The notes beneath the pieces were generated by a model that had not been told where the DNA came from, made no database searches, and saw only the letters and a list, made by a program, of their open reading frames with translations. Positions 3,629 to 22,425 of a stretch of 24,473 bases of DNA are shown here, in pieces (the first letter of the stretch is position 1; each line of letters opens with the position of its first letter). The position numbers and the translations under genes are program-made. The stretch covers positions 1 through 24,473 of the IMG/VR virus record IMGVR_UViG_3300017991_000384. One strand, given 5' to 3'. Origin of the DNA: a virus.

Positions 3629-3690
3629 CTTAGGGTTGGCGTCCCCGAAGGACGTTTACAATATAGGGAATTTTGAAAGGAGATTGAGTT

Positions 3691-4197
3691 ATGCTCACGA
3701 TTCTAATTCGCACTCAGCTCAACTCGATTCCTGTTCTCGCTGATGTTTGCTTCACAAAAGCGAACTATGGCGTGAACACGAATACGACGTTGTCTGTCAA
3801 CACTCCGCGCGGTGTGTTGGGCGGCTCTATTGCTGCGATCAGTGCGGGTAACGACTACACGGTTGTTCCGGGTCATGTTGACCTTGAACCCGTGGGTCTG
3901 TTCGTCAACGATGCAGCTGGCGCGGCGTTCGAGAATGCTCCGGCGGTTGCGTCTGGCAAGGTTGCGGTCATCAAGGGCCAGCCCTCTGTCGAAGTTGACG
4001 TGTACGAAACCCGCAACCAAGCTGGCACTGCCGATCTGAGCTATGCCGTCGGAAACTTGCTCTATTCTTCGGCTCAGGGATTCCTGACCAAAGAAAAGCC
4101 TTCCGATGTCGGTGGCTCGATTGATACCATTATTGGTATCACAACCAAGGCACCGTCCACGGCAAGCCCAACCATCGGTCTTGACATGCGCATCTAA
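3691..4197 (+). CDS. Small virion protein, capsid decoration/head protein candidate
   Basis: 168 aa, rich in Gly, Ala, Val and Thr, with predicted beta content and no low complexity (for example the stretch PRGVLGGSIAAISAGNDYTV). It lies between the acidic scaffold-like gene and the capsid gene, with the SD AAAGGAG eight bases before the ATG. Small beta-rich proteins in this position are often head decoration or stabilisation proteins, and I make that call on position and composition. GC-rich codon use resembles the neighbouring capsid gene rather than the AT-richer genes elsewhere in the window, consistent with high expression. Confidence 0.6.
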   Translation: MLTILIRTQLNSIPVLADVCFTKANYGVNTNTTLSVNTPRGVLGGSIAAISAGNDYTVVPGHVDLEPVGLFVNDAAGAAFENAPAVASGKVAVIKGQPSVEVDVYETRNQAGTADLSYAVGNLLYSSAQGFLTKEKPSDVGGSIDTIIGITTKAPSTASPTIGLDMRI

Positions 4198-4408
4198 ACG
4201 CATGACGCGGAACACGCTATGTTCCCCAGCGTGTAATAAATCGGGGTTTAGATAAGGGTGTTGCGAAGTAAGGAGAGATTTGATTGTTCCCAATCGCTCA
4301 TTCAATGCAGAACAACATCCTTGAGTGGTCTACAAGGCCGCTCAAAAAAGAACGTTGGAAGCTTACGGTCAGCGTTGACCACTTCCATTTTGATAAAGGA
4401 GAATGAAC
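4198..4408 (+). promoter_or_regulatory. Structured 5' leader of the capsid gene
   Basis: About 210 nt without a convincing gene. It holds a hairpin around 4207-4232 (GGAACA/TGTTCC overlapping CACGCT/AGCGTG) and a set of competing pairings just before the capsid SD: hairpin 4323-4330/4336-4343 (GAGTGGTC with GGCCGCTC, followed by six As), hairpin 4367-4371/4376-4380 (GGTCA GCGT TGACC), and an alternative long-range pairing 4324-4330 with 4377-4383 (AGTGGTC/GACCACT) that excludes both. A 14-codon frame (TTG at 4280, SD AAGGAG) also lies here. Translational control of the capsid gene is possible but unproven. Confidence 0.35.
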
Positions 4409-5272
4409 ATGGCCCAGTTGGACAATCAGACCAAGCAGGAAATCATCAGTCAGTACATCAAGACTGCCGCTGGTCGCCAACGCTTGGCCGCGTCCATGAT
4501 TCAACCCCTCCGCCGTCGTAGGGATTACTCGTCTGTTGGCCGCAAGGCTTTCTATGTCGAGCAACTTCCCGATGGTGCGCTTCCTCTTTACGACAAAGAT
4601 CCAAATATCACGGCCTACGTCGTTGGAGAAGAGGGGGAGAACATTGTCGCAGTCGCCAAGCCAAAGCGCGTGATGTTCCCGCTGTTCGAGATTGCTTCGA
4701 ACCCTGAAATCCAGCTGACCGAGATCAAGCAGCGTCGTTTCGATCTGATCGAGCGTTCTCTTGACCTCGCGAAAGCGGAAATTCAGGCCGAAGAAGACCG
4801 TAAGGTTTTCGCAGTGATGAACGCACTTTCGGCAGACCCCACCAACCCCAACCCCGCTATCCCCGTCACGGGCAACCTGACGGCCAATGCGCTTGCAGAT
4901 GCTTTTGCAAATATTGAGCGTACGGATATGCGCGTGGCCAACGTGTTCTTGAATGCTAAGGACTACGCTGACCTCCGCAAGTGGGATCGGGACACCTTGG
5001 ACATCGAAACTCAGGCCGTCTTGCTCAAGACTGGTCTGATGGCGACGGTCTGGGGTGCAAAACTCATCGTCAGTCGTATCGTGCCGGAAGGCACCGTTTA
5101 CGTCTGTGGTGAGCCTGAGTTCTTCGGTAGAATCCCCGTCCGTACCGAACTCACCGTGCTGTCCGCTGATGATCCGAAAAACCGTCTTATTGGTTTCTCG
5201 GTGTTCGAGAACATCGGCATTGGTGCGTACAACCCGTACGCATTGCAGGTGCTCACCATCACGCGTACGTAA
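4409..5272 (+). CDS. Major capsid protein, HK97-fold candidate
   Basis: 287 aa from the ATG at 4409, which has AAAGGAG at an ideal distance; the ATG six bases upstream is too close. The helical N-terminus is followed by an alpha/beta body and a C-terminal section (GLMATVWGAKLIVSRIVPEGTVYVCGEPEFFG) like the P-domain end of HK97-type capsid proteins, including the typical 'G..vi.s..vp.g..y' strand-loop-strand. Length fits a small major capsid protein without a delta domain. It is the last gene of the scaffold-capsid operon and is followed 37 nt later by the strongest terminator in the window. GC-rich, biased codon use suggests high expression. The assignment is from sequence pattern and context, not from a database match. 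Confidence 0.7.
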   Translation: MAQLDNQTKQEIISQYIKTAAGRQRLAASMIQPLRRRRDYSSVGRKAFYVEQLPDGALPLYDKDPNITAYVVGEEGENIVAVAKPKRVMFPLFEIASNPEIQLTEIKQRRFDLIERSLDLAKAEIQAEEDRKVFAVMNALSADPTNPNPAIPVTGNLTANALADAFANIERTDMRVANVFLNAKDYADLRKWDRDTLDIETQAVLLKTGLMATVWGAKLIVSRIVPEGTVYVCGEPEFFGRIPVRTELTVLSADDPKNRLIGFSVFENIGIGAYNPYALQVLTITRT

Positions 5273-5902: not shown

Positions 5903-7915
5903 ATGTCGCCGCACGAGAAGCGCAAAGGTTGGCATATCAGGCAATCTTTTTCAGACGACTTTGTGGACTTGATGCACAAGTTGGAGAAAAAGTACGGCGA
6001 CAAGATTTTTGCAATCCAAGGTATCGCGAACGATCACCTCGATCTGGTGCAGTTCAGCAGAAGTTTCTTTGCAAAGTCGGCCAGTAACGTAGCAGATGTA
6101 AGCGTTGACGGCAACGCCAACGTTACTGAAAAGAACATCATGCAATATAACTATGAAGCGGGAAAGGCTCTTATGAAACTTAATAGCCTTTACCTTCTTT
6201 ACAAATGGGTCAAAAAATTCTGGAAAAGAGAAGTAGCAGCCGAAGCATTGGAAAAGGTCGTCAACGGCGAGTTGTTCGTTAACGACCTTGTTCATTTCGG
6301 GATGCCGTATTGCTATGCCTTTGATCTCCGGAGCCTTCTGACTGAAGGGATGAATTTTTACAAAGGCAATATGCCGATCAATCCGCCAAAACGCAGTGAC
6401 TCTTTCTTTGCCTTGCTTATCCAGACGACGGCGTATATCAGCAACCAGATTCTTGGAGCGGCTTCATATCCTGATTTTTTTGTCGTTTTGGATTGGTTCT
6501 ATCGCAAGGAAATGGGCGAGGATTATTCTGACCAGTTGAATGATAAGACAATATGGAAAAGAATCAAAAACCAATTCCAAAATCTTGTCTTCAGTTTCAA
6601 CTTTCCCTTTCGCGGAAATCAAAGTGCCTTCACCAATTTGTCGGTGATGGACGAGGGTTTTTTGCAGCAACTTTTTGGCAAAGGAGCTTACACCTATCCA
6701 GATGGTACTGATCCCAAACTGGAAAGTGTTTTGAAATTATCGAAAAAGTTCTTTGAGTACTATGCTGAAATCAACGGCAAGGAAGGAATCTTTACATTCC
6801 CCGTTATGACATTGGCAATCAGTATTGACAAAGATACTGGAAAATATATTGATCCAGAATTTGTAGATTGGGCGGCAAAAGCAAATTGCAGTAAAGCGAT
6901 GGCAAACATTTTCCAGAGTGTTCCAAATTCGTTTTCAAGCTGTTGCCGGTTAAAAAGTGAATTTCAGATTGACGAAGTGGGTGCAGATGGTTATCAAAAC
7001 AGTTTTGGCGTTGGTGGTCTTTCGATTGGAAGTCATCGCGTTGCAGGTTTGAATCTTCCGCGTATTGCGATTTTGGAGAAAGAGAACCCAAATATCCTTG
7101 AAGAAGACATTGAGTTGTTGCATAAAATCCTTTTGGCGCATCGGCGTTTAATCCAGCATCATATTGACAACAAAGCGCTCCCGCTATATGAGACGGGCTG
7201 GATTCATTTGAAAAAGCAGTACAGTACGATTGGGTTTGTTGGCGGATATGAATATGTTGTCAACAAGGGCTTGAATATTAAGTCTGATGAAGGTATAAAA
7301 GCCTTGACTGATGTCTTGACTTTTGTTGAATCGAAAATTGGCCATTGGCAACGGGAAGAGAAAGAGGACGGGAACATTTACAATATTGAGCAAATCCCTG
7401 CTGAGTCCATGGCGGTGAGGCTTGCGAAAATTGATCATATTTCTGGGCACAACCCGAAAAATTTCAAGCTTTACTCCAACCAGTATATTCCATTGATTGA
7501 AGATGCGAGTATTTACGACAGGTTTCGGATTCAGGGTAATATCGATGCGTTGACTTCCGGCGGTGCGATTTTGCACTTGAATATTGACGATGAAAAACCG
7601 CTGAGCGCAAAGCAATTTCGCAAAGTAATCGAACATGCGAAAAATTCTGGCACTGTTTATTTTGCTGTGAATTATGCTTACAGTGAATGCGAGAAAAAAC
7701 ACTATGTTGTCGGAAAGCGTAAGAAATGCCCCGTTTGTAAAGCAAAGATTACTCAGCAATATACCCGTGTTGTTGGTTTTGTGACGCCGGTGAGAAGCTG
7801 GAATTCCGTTCGGCGTGATTATGAATATGAAAATCGAGTGTTTTACTCGAATGAAAACGCAGTCAATGGAACGTCAAAGAAGAAAATCCTCAAACCTCAA
7901 CCAGCGAGTGTATGA
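5903..7915 (+). CDS. nrdD: Anaerobic ribonucleoside-triphosphate reductase (class III)
   Basis: 670 aa. The class III enzyme reduces ribonucleotides to deoxyribonucleotides with a glycyl radical and supplies precursors for phage DNA. Visible features: YCYAFDLRSLLTEG (around residue 137), the block IQTTAYISNQILGAASYP, the substrate-site cysteines in SFSSCCR (Cys347/348), a C-terminal zinc site, and RVVGFVTPVRSWN with Gly625 as the expected radical glycine. The zinc site reads Cys596-x3-His600 ... Cys609-x2-Cys612, so the first pair is C-x3-H rather than the usual CxxC. The ATG follows GAAGGAGGAAG. The activase gene starts two bases after the stop. Length is normal for the family. Confidence 0.93.
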   Translation: MSPHEKRKGWHIRQSFSDDFVDLMHKLEKKYGDKIFAIQGIANDHLDLVQFSRSFFAKSASNVADVSVDGNANVTEKNIMQYNYEAGKALMKLNSLYLLYKWVKKFWKREVAAEALEKVVNGELFVNDLVHFGMPYCYAFDLRSLLTEGMNFYKGNMPINPPKRSDSFFALLIQTTAYISNQILGAASYPDFFVVLDWFYRKEMGEDYSDQLNDKTIWKRIKNQFQNLVFSFNFPFRGNQSAFTNLSVMDEGFLQQLFGKGAYTYPDGTDPKLESVLKLSKKFFEYYAEINGKEGIFTFPVMTLAISIDKDTGKYIDPEFVDWAAKANCSKAMANIFQSVPNSFSSCCRLKSEFQIDEVGADGYQNSFGVGGLSIGSHRVAGLNLPRIAILEKENPNILEEDIELLHKILLAHRRLIQHHIDNKALPLYETGWIHLKKQYSTIGFVGGYEYVVNKGLNIKSDEGIKALTDVLTFVESKIGHWQREEKEDGNIYNIEQIPAESMAVRLAKIDHISGHNPKNFKLYSNQYIPLIEDASIYDRFRIQGNIDALTSGGAILHLNIDDEKPLSAKQFRKVIEHAKNSGTVYFAVNYAYSECEKKHYVVGKRKKCPVCKAKITQQYTRVVGFVTPVRSWNSVRRDYEYENRVFYSNENAVNGTSKKKILKPQPASV

Positions 7916-7916
7916 T

Positions 7917-8519
7917 ATGCAAATTGCAAGTTTTGTTCGCGATTCGTTTCAAGAGTTTGAAGATCATCATTCTCTGGTCCTATTCTGTAAAGGCTGCAAT
8001 TTTTCCTGCCCAGAATGCTACAACTTGAAAAGTCTCGAACAACCGCCTATCGGGACAGCGGTAAACATTATCAAAGCGGAAATAACGCCCATGCACGACG
8101 CTGTGGTTTTTCTTGGAGGCGAACCTACCATATGGAGCAATGGCTTGCTAAAAGCCGCCGTTTTTGCCAAGAGAAGCATGGATTTGAGCGTCAAAGTTTT
8201 TACGAATGGATTCCAACCAGACGTGGTTGAAAGGTTGATTGCTGCCGAAGTTGTAGACGCTTTTAGTGTCGATTTTAAGTGCCTTGAAGCAGTAAAGGAA
8301 GTCATTGGAGTCGATATTTCAGCAGAAAAATACATTTCCACAGTCACTGACACAATCAACATAATTCGTGATTCAAACATCCCAATTGAACTGCGTACAA
8401 CTTCATTTAAGTCGGTGCGTAATATGGACTTACTCAAATCTCATGTTGGAAATACTTTTCCAAATGTGCGTCATATCATTCAAGAAGATTTCTCTCCGAT
8501 GCTTGAGAATGTCCTGTAG
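7917..8519 (+). CDS. nrdG: Anaerobic RNR-activating protein, radical SAM
   Basis: 200 aa from the ATG at 7917, two bases after the nrdD stop. It has the radical SAM signature Cys27-x3-Cys31-x2-Cys34 (CNFSCPEC), and GGEPT (FLGGEPTIW) as the SAM-binding 'GGE' strand, and it is the length of NrdG-type activases. It would use S-adenosylmethionine and a [4Fe-4S] cluster to generate the glycyl radical on NrdD. There is no strong SD, so translation is probably coupled to nrdD. A longer in-frame start inside nrdD is not needed. A single SAM-dependent activase next to its target is the standard arrangement. Confidence 0.92.
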   Translation: MQIASFVRDSFQEFEDHHSLVLFCKGCNFSCPECYNLKSLEQPPIGTAVNIIKAEITPMHDAVVFLGGEPTIWSNGLLKAAVFAKRSMDLSVKVFTNGFQPDVVERLIAAEVVDAFSVDFKCLEAVKEVIGVDISAEKYISTVTDTINIIRDSNIPIELRTTSFKSVRNMDLLKSHVGNTFPNVRHIIQEDFSPMLENVL

Positions 8520-9836: not shown

Positions 9837-9868
9837 GTAGTCGGAGGAGGAATGGTTTGACGCGAACC

Positions 9869-9910
9869 AACAAGGCAGGTGGGTTATTCCTGCCTGCCTT
9901 GTTCTATTGG
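9869..9910 (+). terminator. Hairpin between lipoprotein 1 and the caspase-like gene
   Basis: Perfect 10-bp stem AACAAGGCAG/CTGCCTTGTT (9869-9878 with 9894-9903), followed by a short T-rich stretch (TTCTATT). It could be a weak terminator or attenuator. A very strong SD (GGAGGAGG at 9843-9850) precedes it, with the three-codon frame ATG GTT TGA at 9852. Confidence 0.5.
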
Positions 9911-9919
9911 AGAATAACT

Positions 9920-10867
9920 ATGAGTGGCAAAAAAGGTTGTTTGCTTGGCTGGCTTATGGGCAATGGCGAGACAGGGACGCCAGACATTCCTAATCCGCCA
10001 TCGCCGCCACCACCATCTGGAACAGGAAATATGAATAAAAAAGCACTCCTTATTGGTATCAATAAATATCAAATGCCCGGAGCGAATCTGAATGGCTGTG
10101 TGAATGACGTAAACAATATGTGGGACATACTTGTAAACAAGCAAGGTTTTGAGCCTGATAACATCCGCATGGTTACAGATGAACGCGCAACCAAGGCAAA
10201 TATTCTTTCCCGTCTTGAATGGCTTGTAGCTGGTTCGAAGGCTGGTGATTTGCTTATCTTTCAGTATAGCGGACACGGTTCCCAAGTGAGAGATAGGAAC
10301 GGGGATGAACTGAATGACCACATGGATGAAATACTTTGCCCGACAGATTTGGATTGGGATGACCCACTGACTGATGATATTGTGGCAACTTATTTCAAGC
10401 GCATTCCTAAAGGTGCGTTCCTGACGTTCATTTGTGATGCTTGTCACTCTGGGACAATGGATAGGAGTCTCGTTTCTCCCAATAGCAATCCACACCCAAC
10501 GAAGGAACGTTTCTTGCCACCACCGGCAGACATCTTAGCGCGGTCAAGAGGCAGAGATTTGAAAACCAAAAAGGTTGGTTGCAGAAGTTTGTTCAAGAGC
10601 AATGGAAACGTAACATATTCTGAGCAACGGCATATGCTTCTCTCCGGTTGTCGTGATGATCAAACAAGCGCCGATGCTTTTATTGATGGAAAGTATCAAG
10701 GCGCAATGACGGCAAGCTTGTTGAAGATGTTGAAAACGCACCCAGATGCTTCTTGGGTACGTGTTCACGAAGAGATGTTGAAGTATTTGTCAGGTAGTTT
10801 TTCTCAGGTGCCTCAATTGAGTGGGCCAAAGCCTGAATTGGAAGCAAAACCTTTTTCAAAGAGCTGA
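9920..10867 (+). CDS. Caspase-fold cysteine protease (peptidase C14, metacaspase-like)
   Basis: 315 aa from the ATG at 9920 (GGAG seven bases upstream). A 37-residue lead with a Pro-rich linker precedes the catalytic domain: KKALLIGINKY (first strand), YSGHGS with His119, and FICDACHSGT with Cys175, the classic His/Cys dyad of clan CD proteases. The strand-helix order (LIGI ... GDLLIFQYSGHG ... LTFICDACHSG) is that of bacterial metacaspases, which usually cut after Arg/Lys. A further in-frame TTG start at 9857 would run through the upstream hairpin and is less likely. A caspase-like protease in a phage is uncommon; roles in virion maturation, host killing or counter-defence are open. Confidence 0.88.
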   Translation: MSGKKGCLLGWLMGNGETGTPDIPNPPSPPPPSGTGNMNKKALLIGINKYQMPGANLNGCVNDVNNMWDILVNKQGFEPDNIRMVTDERATKANILSRLEWLVAGSKAGDLLIFQYSGHGSQVRDRNGDELNDHMDEILCPTDLDWDDPLTDDIVATYFKRIPKGAFLTFICDACHSGTMDRSLVSPNSNPHPTKERFLPPPADILARSRGRDLKTKKVGCRSLFKSNGNVTYSEQRHMLLSGCRDDQTSADAFIDGKYQGAMTASLLKMLKTHPDASWVRVHEEMLKYLSGSFSQVPQLSGPKPELEAKPFSKS

Positions 10868-12452: not shown

Positions 12453-12792
12453 GGTTAGCTCAGTGCCGATTAATGGCTAAACAGGGAAACCCCGCTGAGC
12501 TTTGAAAACAGTTCTCGCTGAAGCCGAAATATCAAAGGGCGCTTTGCGGGACGGGCCTCCGAGAACACACGACGCAGTTCTCATGGGAGCCGTGCGAGGA
12601 CTTAATATTTAAGGTGAGTGAAATGTTTTGTTTTAGATTTGCCGAACAATCTGCCTCGTTACTCATGCGAAAGCATGAGCGCGGTATTGCCGCGTCGGGG
12701 CGACTTATTTTGTCACCCAGTTTGACAAAACAAGAAGTCGTCCTGAATACGAATGATACCAGTTGACAAGGTTCGGCGAATGAAGAAAAATG
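12453..12792 (+). ncRNA. Structured RNA of unknown class, with antiterminator
   Basis: No credible reading frame, but dense helices: 12457-12463/12495-12501 (AGCTCAG/CTGAGCT) enclosing two small hairpins; 12511-12517/12560-12566 (GTTCTCG/CGAGAAC) with inner CAAAG-GGCG-CTTTG; a 5-bp hairpin 12601-12613; 12635-12639/12648-12652 with loop TGCCGAAC; CTCATGC-GAAA-GCATGAG at 12662-12679 (GNRA loop); CGCGG/CCGCG at 12680-12694; and 12698-12706/12735-12743 capped by the 8-bp TTTTGTCA/TGACAAAA. The loop GCCGAAC (12641-12647) is complementary to GTTCGGC at 12771-12777, giving a 7-bp pseudoknot. Large phage RNAs such as GOLLD or ROOL sit in similar tRNA contexts, but I cannot match this one to them. Confidence 0.75.
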
Positions 12793-13640: not shown

Positions 13641-13719
13641 ACGGAAGGTTAAGGTATTTGATTCCGAGTCCTTGGTTGAATTATATGCGTTATGCGCCAG
13701 CTTTGGGTTGGCCTTCCGT
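13641..13719 (+). other. Long imperfect hairpin region between tRNA-Val and scaffold element 1
   Basis: ACGGAAGGTTAA (13641-13652) pairs with TTGGCCTTCCGT (13708-13719), 12 bp including two G-U pairs. The 55-nt interior has only small hairpins (for example CCAGCTTTGG). No T-loop signature, so not a tRNA. Function unknown. Confidence 0.45.
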
Positions 13720-13728
13720 GAATAAAAT

Positions 13729-13801
13729 CCAGCACGCTTCAGTGATGGGATACTTCTCCATTTTAGGAAAAAAAGCAACCTGTCGCGTTTTTTGGTGCTG
13801 G
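13729..13801 (+). ncRNA. Hairpin scaffold element 1 (no tRNA inside)
   Basis: Outer helix CCAGCAC/GTGCTGG (13729-13735 with 13795-13801), internal loop GCTTCA / GTTTTTTG, inner helix GTGATGGG/CCTGTCGC (13742-13749 with 13779-13786), apical loop starting ATACTTC. The same internal loop with differently paired helices frames the permuted tRNA at 13892-14025, and the compensatory differences show that the structure itself is maintained. Confidence 0.75.
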
Positions 13802-13806
13802 TTTAT

Positions 13807-13881
13807 GGCCCTGTGATGTAATTGGAAACATGTCAGGTTTTCAGCCTGATTTTTGGGGTTCGAGTCCCCACAGGGTCACCA
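13807..13881 (+). tRNA. tRNA-Glu(UUC)
   Basis: Acceptor GGCCCTG/CAGGGTC (one G-U), anticodon loop TTTTCAG, T loop TTCGAGT, CCA encoded. It separates the two scaffold elements. Confidence 0.95.
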
Positions 13882-13887
13882 AAAAAT

Positions 13888-14029
13888 AATTCCAGTACGC
13901 TTCAGTGAAGAGATACTTCGACTTGTAATCGAGAGGTTGCGGGTTCGAGTCCCGTCGGTTTGCTTCGGCAAACTGTAGCTCAATTGGCAGAGCGCTAAAT
14001 ACCTCTTTGCGTTTTTTGGTACTGGAATT
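13888..14029 (+). tRNA. Circularly permuted tRNA-Thr(UGU) in scaffold element 2
   Basis: The 3' part comes first: anticodon arm 13917-13933 (loop CTTGTAA), variable loop AGGTT, T arm 13939-13955 (GCGGG TTCGAGT CCCGT), 3' acceptor strand CGGTTTG (13956-13962). Then C-TTCG-G, then 5' acceptor strand CAAACTG (13969-13975), TA, D arm 13978-13993 (GCTC AATTGGCA GAGC), G26. Joined in normal order these make a complete cloverleaf with a 7-bp acceptor. The break lies between positions 26 and 27. No CCA is encoded. Flanks: outer helix AATTCCAGTAC/GTACTGGAATT (13888-13898 with 14019-14029), loop GCTTCA/GTTTTTTG, inner helix GTGAAGAG/CTCTTTGC (13905-13912 with 14003-14010). Maturation would need cleavage of the UUCG loop, joining at 26/27 and CCA addition. 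A conventional tRNA-Thr(UGU) exists at 22350. Confidence 0.85.
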
Positions 14030-20163: not shown

Positions 20164-20171
20164 ACTTTATT

Positions 20172-20361
20172 TGCTCTCATAGGAAGGTCAGGACACCACT
20201 GCTGAAGGTAGGAGACAATTGTCGCTCGCACTACTGAGGGTGCAACACAAATAGGCTCCGTTTGGACTGGGTGAGCAGCAGGAAGGAGCGGGTTGTGGCA
20301 AAGATGAATGACAGATTGGAAAACAAAATCCTGCCTACTGTAGAATCTGTCGATGAGAGCA
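20172..20361 (+). ncRNA. rnpB-like: Circularly permuted, miniature RNase P RNA
   Basis: RNase P catalytic-domain signatures, numbered by window: CR-I AGGAAGGTCAGGAC (20181-20194; E. coli AGGAAAGTCCGGGC); P4 strands AGG-[U188]-CAGGA (20185-20193) and TCCTGCCT (20329-20336), eight perfect pairs with the universal bulged U; AGATGAAT (20302-20309, identical to E. coli); GTGCAACA (20240-20247, identical to E. coli) followed by CAAA; ACAAAA before P4-3' (E. coli ACAGAA). P2 is GACAGATT (20310-20317) with AATCTGTC (20344-20351), but this 5' strand of P2 comes after P4-3' instead of before CR-I. P1 is missing, replaced by ACTGTAG. The ends pair as TGCTCTCAT/ATGAGAGCA in the P3 position. P5 CTGCTG/CAGCAG, P7 GGAG/CTCC and hairpins P8-P9 are reduced. 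GGGTT (20290-20294) may be the L15 site that binds tRNA CCA. Confidence 0.85.
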
Positions 20362-20367
20362 TTTTGT

Positions 20368-21392: not shown

Positions 21393-21480
21393 GGGCGAGT
21401 GGAGGAATTGGTATACTCGCGGGATTTAAAATCCCGTGGACTAATAGTCCATGAGGGTTCGAGTCCCTCCTCGCCTACCA
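21393..21480 (+). tRNA. tRNA-Leu(UAA)
   Basis: Acceptor GGGCGAG/CTCGCCT (G-U at 1:72), anticodon loop TTTAAAA, long variable arm, A73, CCA encoded. Confidence 0.96.
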
Positions 21481-21498
21481 CTTGACAGGAGAATTTCA

Positions 21499-22053
21499 AT
21501 GCCCAACGAGTATTTGTTTGAGTGCCGCGTTCCGAAACATTACTTTGTAACGTCTGGAGCAGGCCAAATAACGCAGGATGCGGGAGCTGATCATTATGAA
21601 ACAGGTTCCTATGATTTGGCTTTGCTGGATGCTTCAATTGAGAACTTCAACGTTGTGAAGTATACCAGTGTAGTCCCTAAAAATGCGGAAGAAATCCCTT
21701 TGGATGAAGCCAAAAAGTATTTCCGTCACGGCGCGGTGCTTGAATGCATCATGGCTCAAATGAACGGCCCGCAAGGTGAACATCTTTGCGCTGGCGTAGG
21801 AAGATGCAAATGCAAAGTCAATGGAAGCTACATCGGTGGCTTTGCGGCTGAGTATGAAGGCAATGCTTCGACAGAGAAAGCAGAAAAAATCCTTGAAAAA
21901 GATTTACAAGGCATTGTTGACAGGCGCTATGGAAAAAGTGGTGAAATGTTTGATCTTGAGTTCACAATAAGAGATTTGGTTGTTGACGACGAATACGGCA
22001 CTGTTTTGGCCGCTATTTGCTTTATCACGTACGAATTTCCGGTGATAGGATAG
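21499..22053 (+). CDS. Pyruvoyl-dependent arginine decarboxylase
   Basis: 184 aa, SD AGGAG upstream. Matches the PvlArgDC family (about 150-195 aa): YFVTSGAGQ, GSYDLALLDASIENFNVVKYTSVVP, and GGFAAEYEG with Glu118 as the expected proton donor. Self-cleavage should occur between Thr56 and Ser57, the serine becoming the pyruvoyl group; bacterial (chlamydial-type) members also have Thr-Ser here. The enzyme converts arginine to agmatine, which could feed polyamines for DNA packaging, or raise pH and consume arginine as in chlamydial AaxB. No agmatine or spermidine pathway partner is in the window. Confidence 0.9.
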   Translation: MPNEYLFECRVPKHYFVTSGAGQITQDAGADHYETGSYDLALLDASIENFNVVKYTSVVPKNAEEIPLDEAKKYFRHGAVLECIMAQMNGPQGEHLCAGVGRCKCKVNGSYIGGFAAEYEGNASTEKAEKILEKDLQGIVDRRYGKSGEMFDLEFTIRDLVVDDEYGTVLAAICFITYEFPVIG

Positions 22054-22152: not shown

Positions 22153-22359
22153 ATGAAAGACAAAAGCGTAATCCCAGAAGGCATTTATTGTCACGGCGTA
22201 AATGGCGTCTGCCCATATTGGTCCTCAAGGGAGGACAAACCAGAGCAGGAAAATGGATACTGTTCTTTTCTTGAAATGGGCGATTGGAACGATGAGCCTT
22301 TGACCCTTTTGTGGGATCAAGTGAAAGAATGCGGAATAAATGATGATTGGCCAACATAG
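22153..22359 (+). CDS. 68-aa acidic Cys-containing protein ending inside tRNA-Thr
   Basis: Four spaced cysteines (YCHGVNGVCPYW ... GYCSF ... KECG) suggest a small metal-bound or disulfide fold; the rest is acidic and Trp-rich. No good SD; the ATG lies seven bases after the tRNA-Leu CCA. The stop TAG is U8-A9-G10 of the next tRNA, a 10-nt overlap like that at 21310. Confidence 0.6.
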   Translation: MKDKSVIPEGIYCHGVNGVCPYWSSREDKPEQENGYCSFLEMGDWNDEPLTLLWDQVKECGINDDWPT

Positions 22360-22425
22360 CTCAATTGGCAGAGCAGGGCACTTGTAATGCTCAGGTTGTG
22401 GGTTCGAATCCCTCTGTTGGCTCCA
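22350..22425 (+). tRNA. tRNA-Thr(UGU), conventional order
   Basis: Acceptor GCCAACA/TGTTGGC (G1-C72, C2-G71 as in Thr identity), anticodon loop CTTGTAA, T-stem mismatch U50-U64, U73, CCA encoded. It has the same anticodon loop as the permuted tRNA at 13888. Confidence 0.95.

Follow-up and report, generated by a model that had tools for sequence, protein, structure and literature searches.

Y RNAs are small non-coding RNAs, gripped at the stem by the ring-shaped protein Ro; those of bacteria are understood in detail for only a few model systems. Permuted tRNA genes occur in algae and archaea. The basal stem of a Y RNA is described as tethering the Ro homologue Rsr, its tRNA-like domain as meeting PNPase, and YrlA as being modified by TruB and DusA (PMC8394870). 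In Deinococcus, Rsr together with Y RNA directs PNPase to structured RNA, and Salmonella YrlA was proposed to be a competitive inhibitor of a tRNA nuclease (PMC7790460). Y RNAs and Ro are already known in phages (PMC7765460), and a Ro-like annotation was present in several of the phage records opened in this work. YrlA (RF02553) carries a permuted T arm, a closed acceptor stem and a D arm on a long stem formed by its ends; the Rfam consensus, seen via Gordonia phage Sixama, places an internal loop of 5 + 8 nt between an outer and an inner helix.

Here we analyse a viral DNA stretch of 24,473 nucleotides (IMG/VR record IMGVR_UViG_3300017991_000384, hereafter the window), in which two hairpins, elements 1 and 2, sit within an array of 32 phage tRNA genes. 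As judged from sequence comparison, both are very probably Y RNAs of a phage-G-like huge phage. They are arranged as follows:

13729..13801, plus strand: element 1, putative short Y RNA with a bipartite stem and a small hairpin, without a tRNA-like module
13736..13741, plus strand: 5' side (GCTTCA) of the element 1 internal loop, putative Ro site
13787..13794, plus strand: 3' side (GTTTTTTG) of the element 1 internal loop
13807..13881, plus strand: tRNA-Glu(TTC), starting 5 nt past element 1; element 2 starts 10 nt past this tRNA
13892..14025, plus strand: element 2, putative long Y RNA with a YrlA-like permuted tRNA module
13899..13904, plus strand: 5' side (GCTTCA) of the element 2 internal loop, putative Ro site
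14011..14018, plus strand: 3' side (GTTTTTTG) of the element 2 internal loop
14034..14110, plus strand: tRNA-Asp(GTC), starting 8 nt past element 2

Both elements follow one plan, namely a 7-bp outer helix, a GCTTCA/GTTTTTTG internal loop and an 8-bp inner helix, after which ATACTTC stands. Element 1 reads CCAGCAC GCTTCA GTGATGGG ATACTTC ... CCTGTCGC GTTTTTTG GTGCTGG and element 2 reads CCAGTAC GCTTCA GTGAAGAG ATACTTC ... CTCTTTGC GTTTTTTG GTACTGG, with 7/7 outer and 8/8 inner pairs formed in each (G-U counted). The outer helices differ by a single C-G to T-A change, and the inner helices by two double-sided changes (T-G to A-T and G-C to A-T) and two one-sided ones; a repeat finder reports the pair as a 32-nt direct repeat of 88% identity. 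The bipartite stem was recovered by the minimum-energy fold in both elements, the loop end of element 1 being a small hairpin. The folding z-score was -2.67 for element 1 (equalled by 3 of 200 shuffles) and -4.58 for element 2 (equalled by none of 200). A scan of 207 sequences (2.48 Mb, both strands) for the scaffold, i.e., outer helix, GCTTCA, inner helix and GNTTTTTG, matched the two window elements (repeated in the overlapping copies L001 and L005) and two in a related contig, L021, with no others, so that the elements are not a product of chance. The exact scaffold pattern had no match in the viral contigs database, and a looser one matched 21 stretches of viral contigs, where the scaffold scan of the loci gave no further element. 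In a blastn search of element 1 against phages, the only match was a 23-nt one (E 0.8) to a single cyanophage, present there as two copies.

The contig L021 was located via its caspase-like protein (74% identity) and is syntenic with the window; the major head proteins of the two are 97% identical. Upstream neighbours are the same in both phages, tRNA-Glu(TTC) standing before element 2 and tRNA-Val(CAC) before element 1, and the order of the blocks differs. The interiors of the two elements differ from each other, yet match one to one between the phages. Among the 37 predicted pairs of element 2, nine show double-sided changes in L021, and among the 19 pairs of element 1 two do, with no pair broken in either. 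Covariation inside the window alone amounts to three double changes, so the case for selection depends on the relatives. No Ro gene was found in the 24-kb window or in the 30-kb L021 record, both of which are fragments.

More distant relatives were sought with the capsid gene:

4403..5272, plus strand: major head protein (PHROG 2522, E 4.3e-54), used for placing the phage

The search retrieved 31 IMG/VR loci, and the identity reached 70% with LR745208, 49% with Tunturi_5, 38% with Bacillus phage G and about 26% with mycobacteriophages. By the sequence of its major head protein, this comparison places the window among the phage-G-like huge phages. A profile search for Ro, performed on 17 of the 31 IMG/VR capsid relatives, L025 and three named phages, found the gene in 7 of the 17 and in Bacillus phage G; it detected none in the other 10 of the 17, in LR745208 (485 kb) or in Tunturi_5. 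Pfam TROVE matched the three IMG/VR Ro proteins scanned with E-values from 4.2e-21 to 1.3e-24, and phage G gp540, annotated as 'putative TROVE domain ribonucleoprotein', weakly (3.1e-4, under the cut-off).

Upstream of the Ro genes of these capsid relatives, on the same strand, GCTTCA-type hairpins were found, so the GCTTCA loop of element 1 is also present in Ro-bearing relatives. The hairpin of L385/L362, for instance, reads TTGATAC GCTTCA GTCTAGGG ATACTTC ... CCTTAGAC GATTATTG GTGTCGG and lies about 250 nt before Ro. Complete elements occur in five of the six distinct IMG/VR Ro loci examined (L380, L381, L383, L385 and L386), only the 5' side having been found in L382; L384, which repeats L383, was omitted from the hairpin search. 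Four 5' motifs had no 3' partner, namely one in L362/L385 (counted twice) and those in L381 and L382. Across ten distinct elements, counting those of the window and of L021, the inner helix is paired in 80/80 cells, and the overall 97.3% of paired cells is partly a matter of construction, as an element was listed only with at least 7/8 inner and at least 6/7 outer pairs. Less affected by this rule is the count of double changes, which occur in 11 of 15 pairs against an arm-swap mean of 5.7. A covariance model, R2, built only from three short Ro-flanking hairpins of capsid relatives, found element 1 as its sole significant match in the window (51.1 bits, E 2.6e-13); elsewhere it matched the L021 elements (51.3 and 35.4 bits) and L380 (43.9 bits), and on 50 other loci (776 kb) nothing exceeded 21.1 bits. 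On element 2 the model misaligned (9-13 bits) and did not recover it across the long insert; element 2 appears to join the family through its identical loop and stem plan and through its L021 counterpart. In one capsid relative, L381, a tmRNA gene lies upstream of the Y RNAs and Ro (3690-4051, minus strand).

Taken together, these sequence comparisons argue that elements 1 and 2 belong to one family, the structure of which is under selection. The earlier note, written from the window alone, had described two hairpin copies with compensatory changes, a description which the pairing, the folds and the scaffold scan bear out, and had taken the RNA structure to be selected, as L021, with its double changes and no broken pairs, and the double changes among the Ro-flanking relatives now substantiate. 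Its suggestion that element 1 might be an empty or decayed version did not hold: element 1 has its own conserved counterpart in L021 and resembles the short Ro-flanking hairpins, as the R2 match demonstrates, and on this comparison it is very probably a short Y RNA without a module, not a decayed copy.

Inside element 2, the parts of a tRNA stand in permuted order and its acceptor ends are joined; a structure-only module search found exactly one such module in the window:

13917..13933, plus strand: anticodon-arm-like hairpin (TTCGA CTTGTAA TCGAG), covarying across 13 sequences
13939..13955, plus strand: T arm of the tRNA-like module
13956..13975, plus strand: acceptor-like stem of 8 bp with a UUCG tetraloop cap and no CCA
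13978..13993, plus strand: D arm of the tRNA-like module

The anticodon-like arm, the T arm, the closed acceptor-like stem and the D arm follow in this order; the cap is C(UUCG)G and leaves no space for a discriminator and CCA. The 'anticodon', UGU in element 2 and AUU in its L021 counterpart, is not conserved. The fold of the single sequence favours an alternative pairing over the anticodon and T arms (-52.4 vs -44.2 kcal/mol). An alignment of 13 module sequences, in which 97.6% of cells in 19 pairs are paired, shows double changes in 11 pairs, a number reached by none of 500 shuffles; this covariation favours the tRNA-like arms as the probable structure over the alternative hairpin.

At a permissive threshold, Rfam YrlA matched positions 13932-13996 with 33.9 bits (model positions 24-84 of 114), the best among the YrlA-like matches in the window; five other places, neighbouring tRNAs, scored 20.5-27.4 bits, and since nearby tRNAs score as well, the match alone is a weak one. 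The score is also under the Rfam gathering score (33.9 vs 69 bits), for which reason element 2 is classed as a YrlA-like Y RNA rather than as a member of the curated family. Ro-linked modules likewise fall below 69 bits, with 46.8 in Sixama (L008) and 39.6 in Promicromonospora (L131). The T arm, closed acceptor stem and D arm that characterize YrlA are all present in element 2 and lacking in element 1. The internal loop shares the geometry of that in YrlA, with 6 + 8 nt here and 5 + 8 nt in the Rfam consensus. Element 2 departs from YrlA in its loop sequence, GCUUCA/GUUUUUUG, in the extra anticodon-arm-like hairpin and in lying in a tRNA array where no Ro gene is seen.

Homologues of the module are widespread. 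A blastn search with element 2 against phages returned 26 records, and modules were matched in Gordonia, Mycobacterium, Microbacterium and Xanthomonas phages and in a Rhodococcus plasmid. Phage Y RNAs adjoining a gene annotated as 'Ro-like RNA binding protein' include those of the Gordonia phages Sixama, Forza and Cashline and of the Mycobacterium prophage prophiGD43A-5, the tRNA-like module of which is about 76-81% identical to that of element 2. Of eleven module-bearing loci opened (L007-L017), ten have a Ro-like gene close by, according to annotation or Pfam TROVE. The exception is LR756508 (484 kb), where neither the Pfam scan of ten ORFs nor searches of the whole record gave a TROVE match. 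Its module lies at about 437.3 kb, and a weak vWA-type protein of 632 aa, no clear Ro, is encoded at about 460 kb. The search against plasmids gave six records, four of which were opened: L017 has the module beside TROVE, and L018 (a tRNA array), L019 and L020 have no Ro gene in the listed annotation.

Starting from Ro instead, the structure-only search found modules, among the matches listed, in 33 of 80 viral Ro loci (80 of at least 209 relatives) and in 31 of 80 genomic ones (80 of at least 95 relatives), and in 0 of 25 other loci; all of the listed modules are on the Ro strand and, bar one in each of the two sets, upstream of Ro. In a set of 123 loci, mostly of a tRNA-like pattern, modules were found in 42, 24 of which have Ro in the locus; the search covered all 120 pattern loci, and the remaining matches there include tightly packed ordinary tRNAs. 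Stems of the CCGRA type, among the matches listed for the 80 viral loci, numbered 23 long (with a T loop) and 19 short upstream of Ro and none of either kind on the opposite strand, both forms occurring together in 12 of the 80. The 80 genomic loci gave, with the same scope, 12 long and 13 short stems, both in two of the 80, and again none of either on the opposite strand. The CCGRA motif and the D-arm starts used in these module and stem searches were fixed after examples had been viewed. The model R1, at a cut-off of 56.8 bits picked after its list had been viewed, gave 44 matches in 37 of the 80 viral loci (among the matches listed), all on the Ro strand and upstream of the gene, 43 within 807 nt and one at 2,266; R1 also scores pairs of tightly packed ordinary tRNAs, up to 73.7 bits in the pattern-selected L217. 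The structure-only search and the opposite-strand control are independent of that cut-off. As long and short forms stand together in 12 of 80 viral loci, the pairing of a short and a long form in the window recurs elsewhere, and in those related viral contigs it lies upstream of Ro. The Ro site of the viral loci is mostly of the CCGRA type, and that of the window elements is instead of the GCTTCA type. In the tRNA array of Gordonia phage GMA2 (L012, 4262-4318), a Pistol ribozyme (56.8 bits vs a gathering score of 34.5) adjoins the Y RNA and the Ro gene.

An array comparable with that of the window was found in Bacillus phage G (JN638751, about 405.0-407.4 kb; L371, L379, L390), where several unannotated short bipartite hairpins bearing AG(T/C)TACTTC stand in tandem before gp540 and a long hairpin of 154 nt carries a permuted tRNA. 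As in the window, short bipartite hairpins with TTACTTC are thus accompanied by one long hairpin with a permuted tRNA. Phage G differs in the 5' loop, which is of the GAAGCGG/GATGCGG type, in having Ro adjacent, and in that its permuted tRNA keeps an encoded A-CCA, whereas element 2 has no CCA. The motif NCCA follows the acceptor stem in 8 of 82 eligible modules, against about 1.3 expected at 1 in 64. A discriminator and CCA stand right after a 7-bp acceptor stem in L371 (phage G), L066, L166 and L247, and perhaps in L086 and L304; L206 and L295 were judged to be tandem tRNAs and not CCA-bearing Y RNA modules. That circularly permuted tRNA genes gave rise to the YrlA-type Y RNAs, with the huge phages keeping steps of the change, is a rather unlikely proposal. 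If true, the mimic in the CCA-bearing modules could be freed and then charged or read as a tRNA end, the UUCG-capped element 2 would represent a locked, purely structural form of the permuted tRNA, and the phage would steer tRNA surveillance during infection by means of short and long Y RNAs on a Ro ring.

The tRNA genes around the elements offer a plausible route for their release. A tRNA lies directly downstream in 8 of the 10 distinct GCTTCA-type elements; the gap to it is 5 and 8 nt in the window and 5 and 6 nt in L021, and a tRNA-Met follows at 8-14 nt in L381, L383, L385 and L386. The Y RNAs may therefore be excised from the tRNA transcript by tRNA processing, the RNase P cut of the next tRNA setting their 3' end, a release which we infer from the tRNA start 5-8 nt after each window element. 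Between tRNA-Val and element 1 (13641-13719) there is a further hairpin with ACGGAAGG/CCTTCCGT arms (-27.3 kcal/mol).

The long stem formed by the ends, with its asymmetric internal loop, is evident in the folds, the relatives and the geometry of the Rfam consensus; homology to the Ro-flanking hairpins is evident for element 1 from R2 and for element 2 from the shared stem and loop. Since their anatomy is like that of known Y RNAs, the phage RNAs are expected to work alike, with a constant Ro stem and an exchangeable end. By analogy with known Y RNAs, the stem and internal loop would dock on a Ro protein, presumably encoded elsewhere in the phage genome or, less likely, by the host, and the loop end of each RNA would be its effector. 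Through its tRNA mimic, element 2 may recruit proteins that act on tRNAs or link the Ro ring to a nuclease, for instance PNPase, and element 1 may act as a gate of Ro or a second tether.

Element 2 could instead be mainly a decoy, its tRNA mimic occupying host anticodon nucleases or other tRNA enzymes regardless of Ro. Its placement among 32 phage tRNA genes, the anticodon-like arm retained under covariation and the competitive-inhibitor role proposed for Salmonella YrlA (PMC7790460) agree with such a function, but element 1 keeps the same stem without any mimic and the linkage to Ro extends across phages and bacteria, which makes independence of Ro distinctly improbable. A decoy activity as such is compatible with the Y RNA reading and is not a true alternative to it.

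Still less probable, indeed very unlikely, is that element 2 is a permuted tRNA gene maturing to a working tRNA-Thr(UGU), the scaffold aligning the ends for cutting and ligation. Such genes resemble element 2 in having the 3' half ahead of the 5' half, and element 2, in keeping with the earlier note's recognition of a permuted tRNA in one copy, has the full set of tRNA arms in permuted order, U33 in a 7-nt loop and a covarying anticodon stem. It differs from them in the UUCG cap, with no CCA and no intervening leader between the halves that would yield a discriminator and CCA, and in showing no sign of ligation; its decoding identity is not conserved, the anticodon varying in L021 and across modules, most positions of the acceptor stem have been rebuilt in L021, and the window already has a standard tRNA-Thr(TGT) (22350-22425). 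Moreover, the scaffold occurs without a tRNA piece beside Ro. The note had offered cleavage, ligation or protein binding as the function of the loop, in the service of permuted-tRNA maturation: the loop is most likely a putative protein-binding site, and the maturation role has to be abandoned, as the stem recurs, conserved and covarying, upstream of the relatives' Ro genes without a tRNA piece. Instances unlinked to tRNA pieces, which the note had itself named as speaking against its proposal, are what these Ro-flanking hairpins provide. A spread of mobile or repeat elements (MITE- or REP-like) through the tRNA array would account for a pair of copies in that array, both with inverted-repeat ends, but the reading is rejected as next to impossible, since in 2.48 Mb the scaffold scan shows no copies beyond the pair in the window and the pair in L021, the differing interiors are kept one to one between the phages, and the divergence is compensatory, not random.

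On the Y RNA reading, the new points, as far as the searches show, would be the GCUUCA/GNUUAUUG-type stem with its huge-phage clade and its conserved pair in a tRNA array, and the unannotated Y RNA arrays of phage G; no published report of either the GCUUCA-type stem or phage G Y RNAs was found in a search that lay mostly outside the subscription literature. The Y RNA stems of the clade share one internal loop, their effector ends differ, and they lie in or beside tRNA arrays, so that a modular model of a constant Ro stem with an exchangeable effector becomes testable by comparison, and the relative Bacillus phage G is cultivable. The Ro site, as this comparison suggests, can acquire a new sequence by drift and still keep its geometry. 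The annotated 'tRNA-Thr', 'tRNA-Asn' and 'tRNA-Leu' underlying blastn matches of element 2 can be explained as pieces of Y RNAs, and calls of permuted tRNAs in phage arrays should be checked against Y RNAs first.

Several other features of the window were recorded. A caspase-domain (Peptidase_C14) protein is encoded at 9857-10867 (E 3.5e-32), with relatives in L021-L025; a glycosyltransferase neighbour gave no relative in the search. An anaerobic ribonucleotide reductase with a radical-SAM partner and a pyruvoyl-dependent arginine decarboxylase lie at 5903-8519 and 21451-22053. After tRNA-Met, the apparently non-coding stretch 12511-12628 shares 90.7% identity with L021, far more than the genes beside it do; its fold has 29 pairs, one with a double change and none broken, and no Rfam match at the gathering score was obtained. 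The spacer between tRNA-Ile and tRNA-Lys (20164-20367), about 81% identical to L021, may be a further structured RNA, and of its 53 predicted pairs four have double changes and none is broken.
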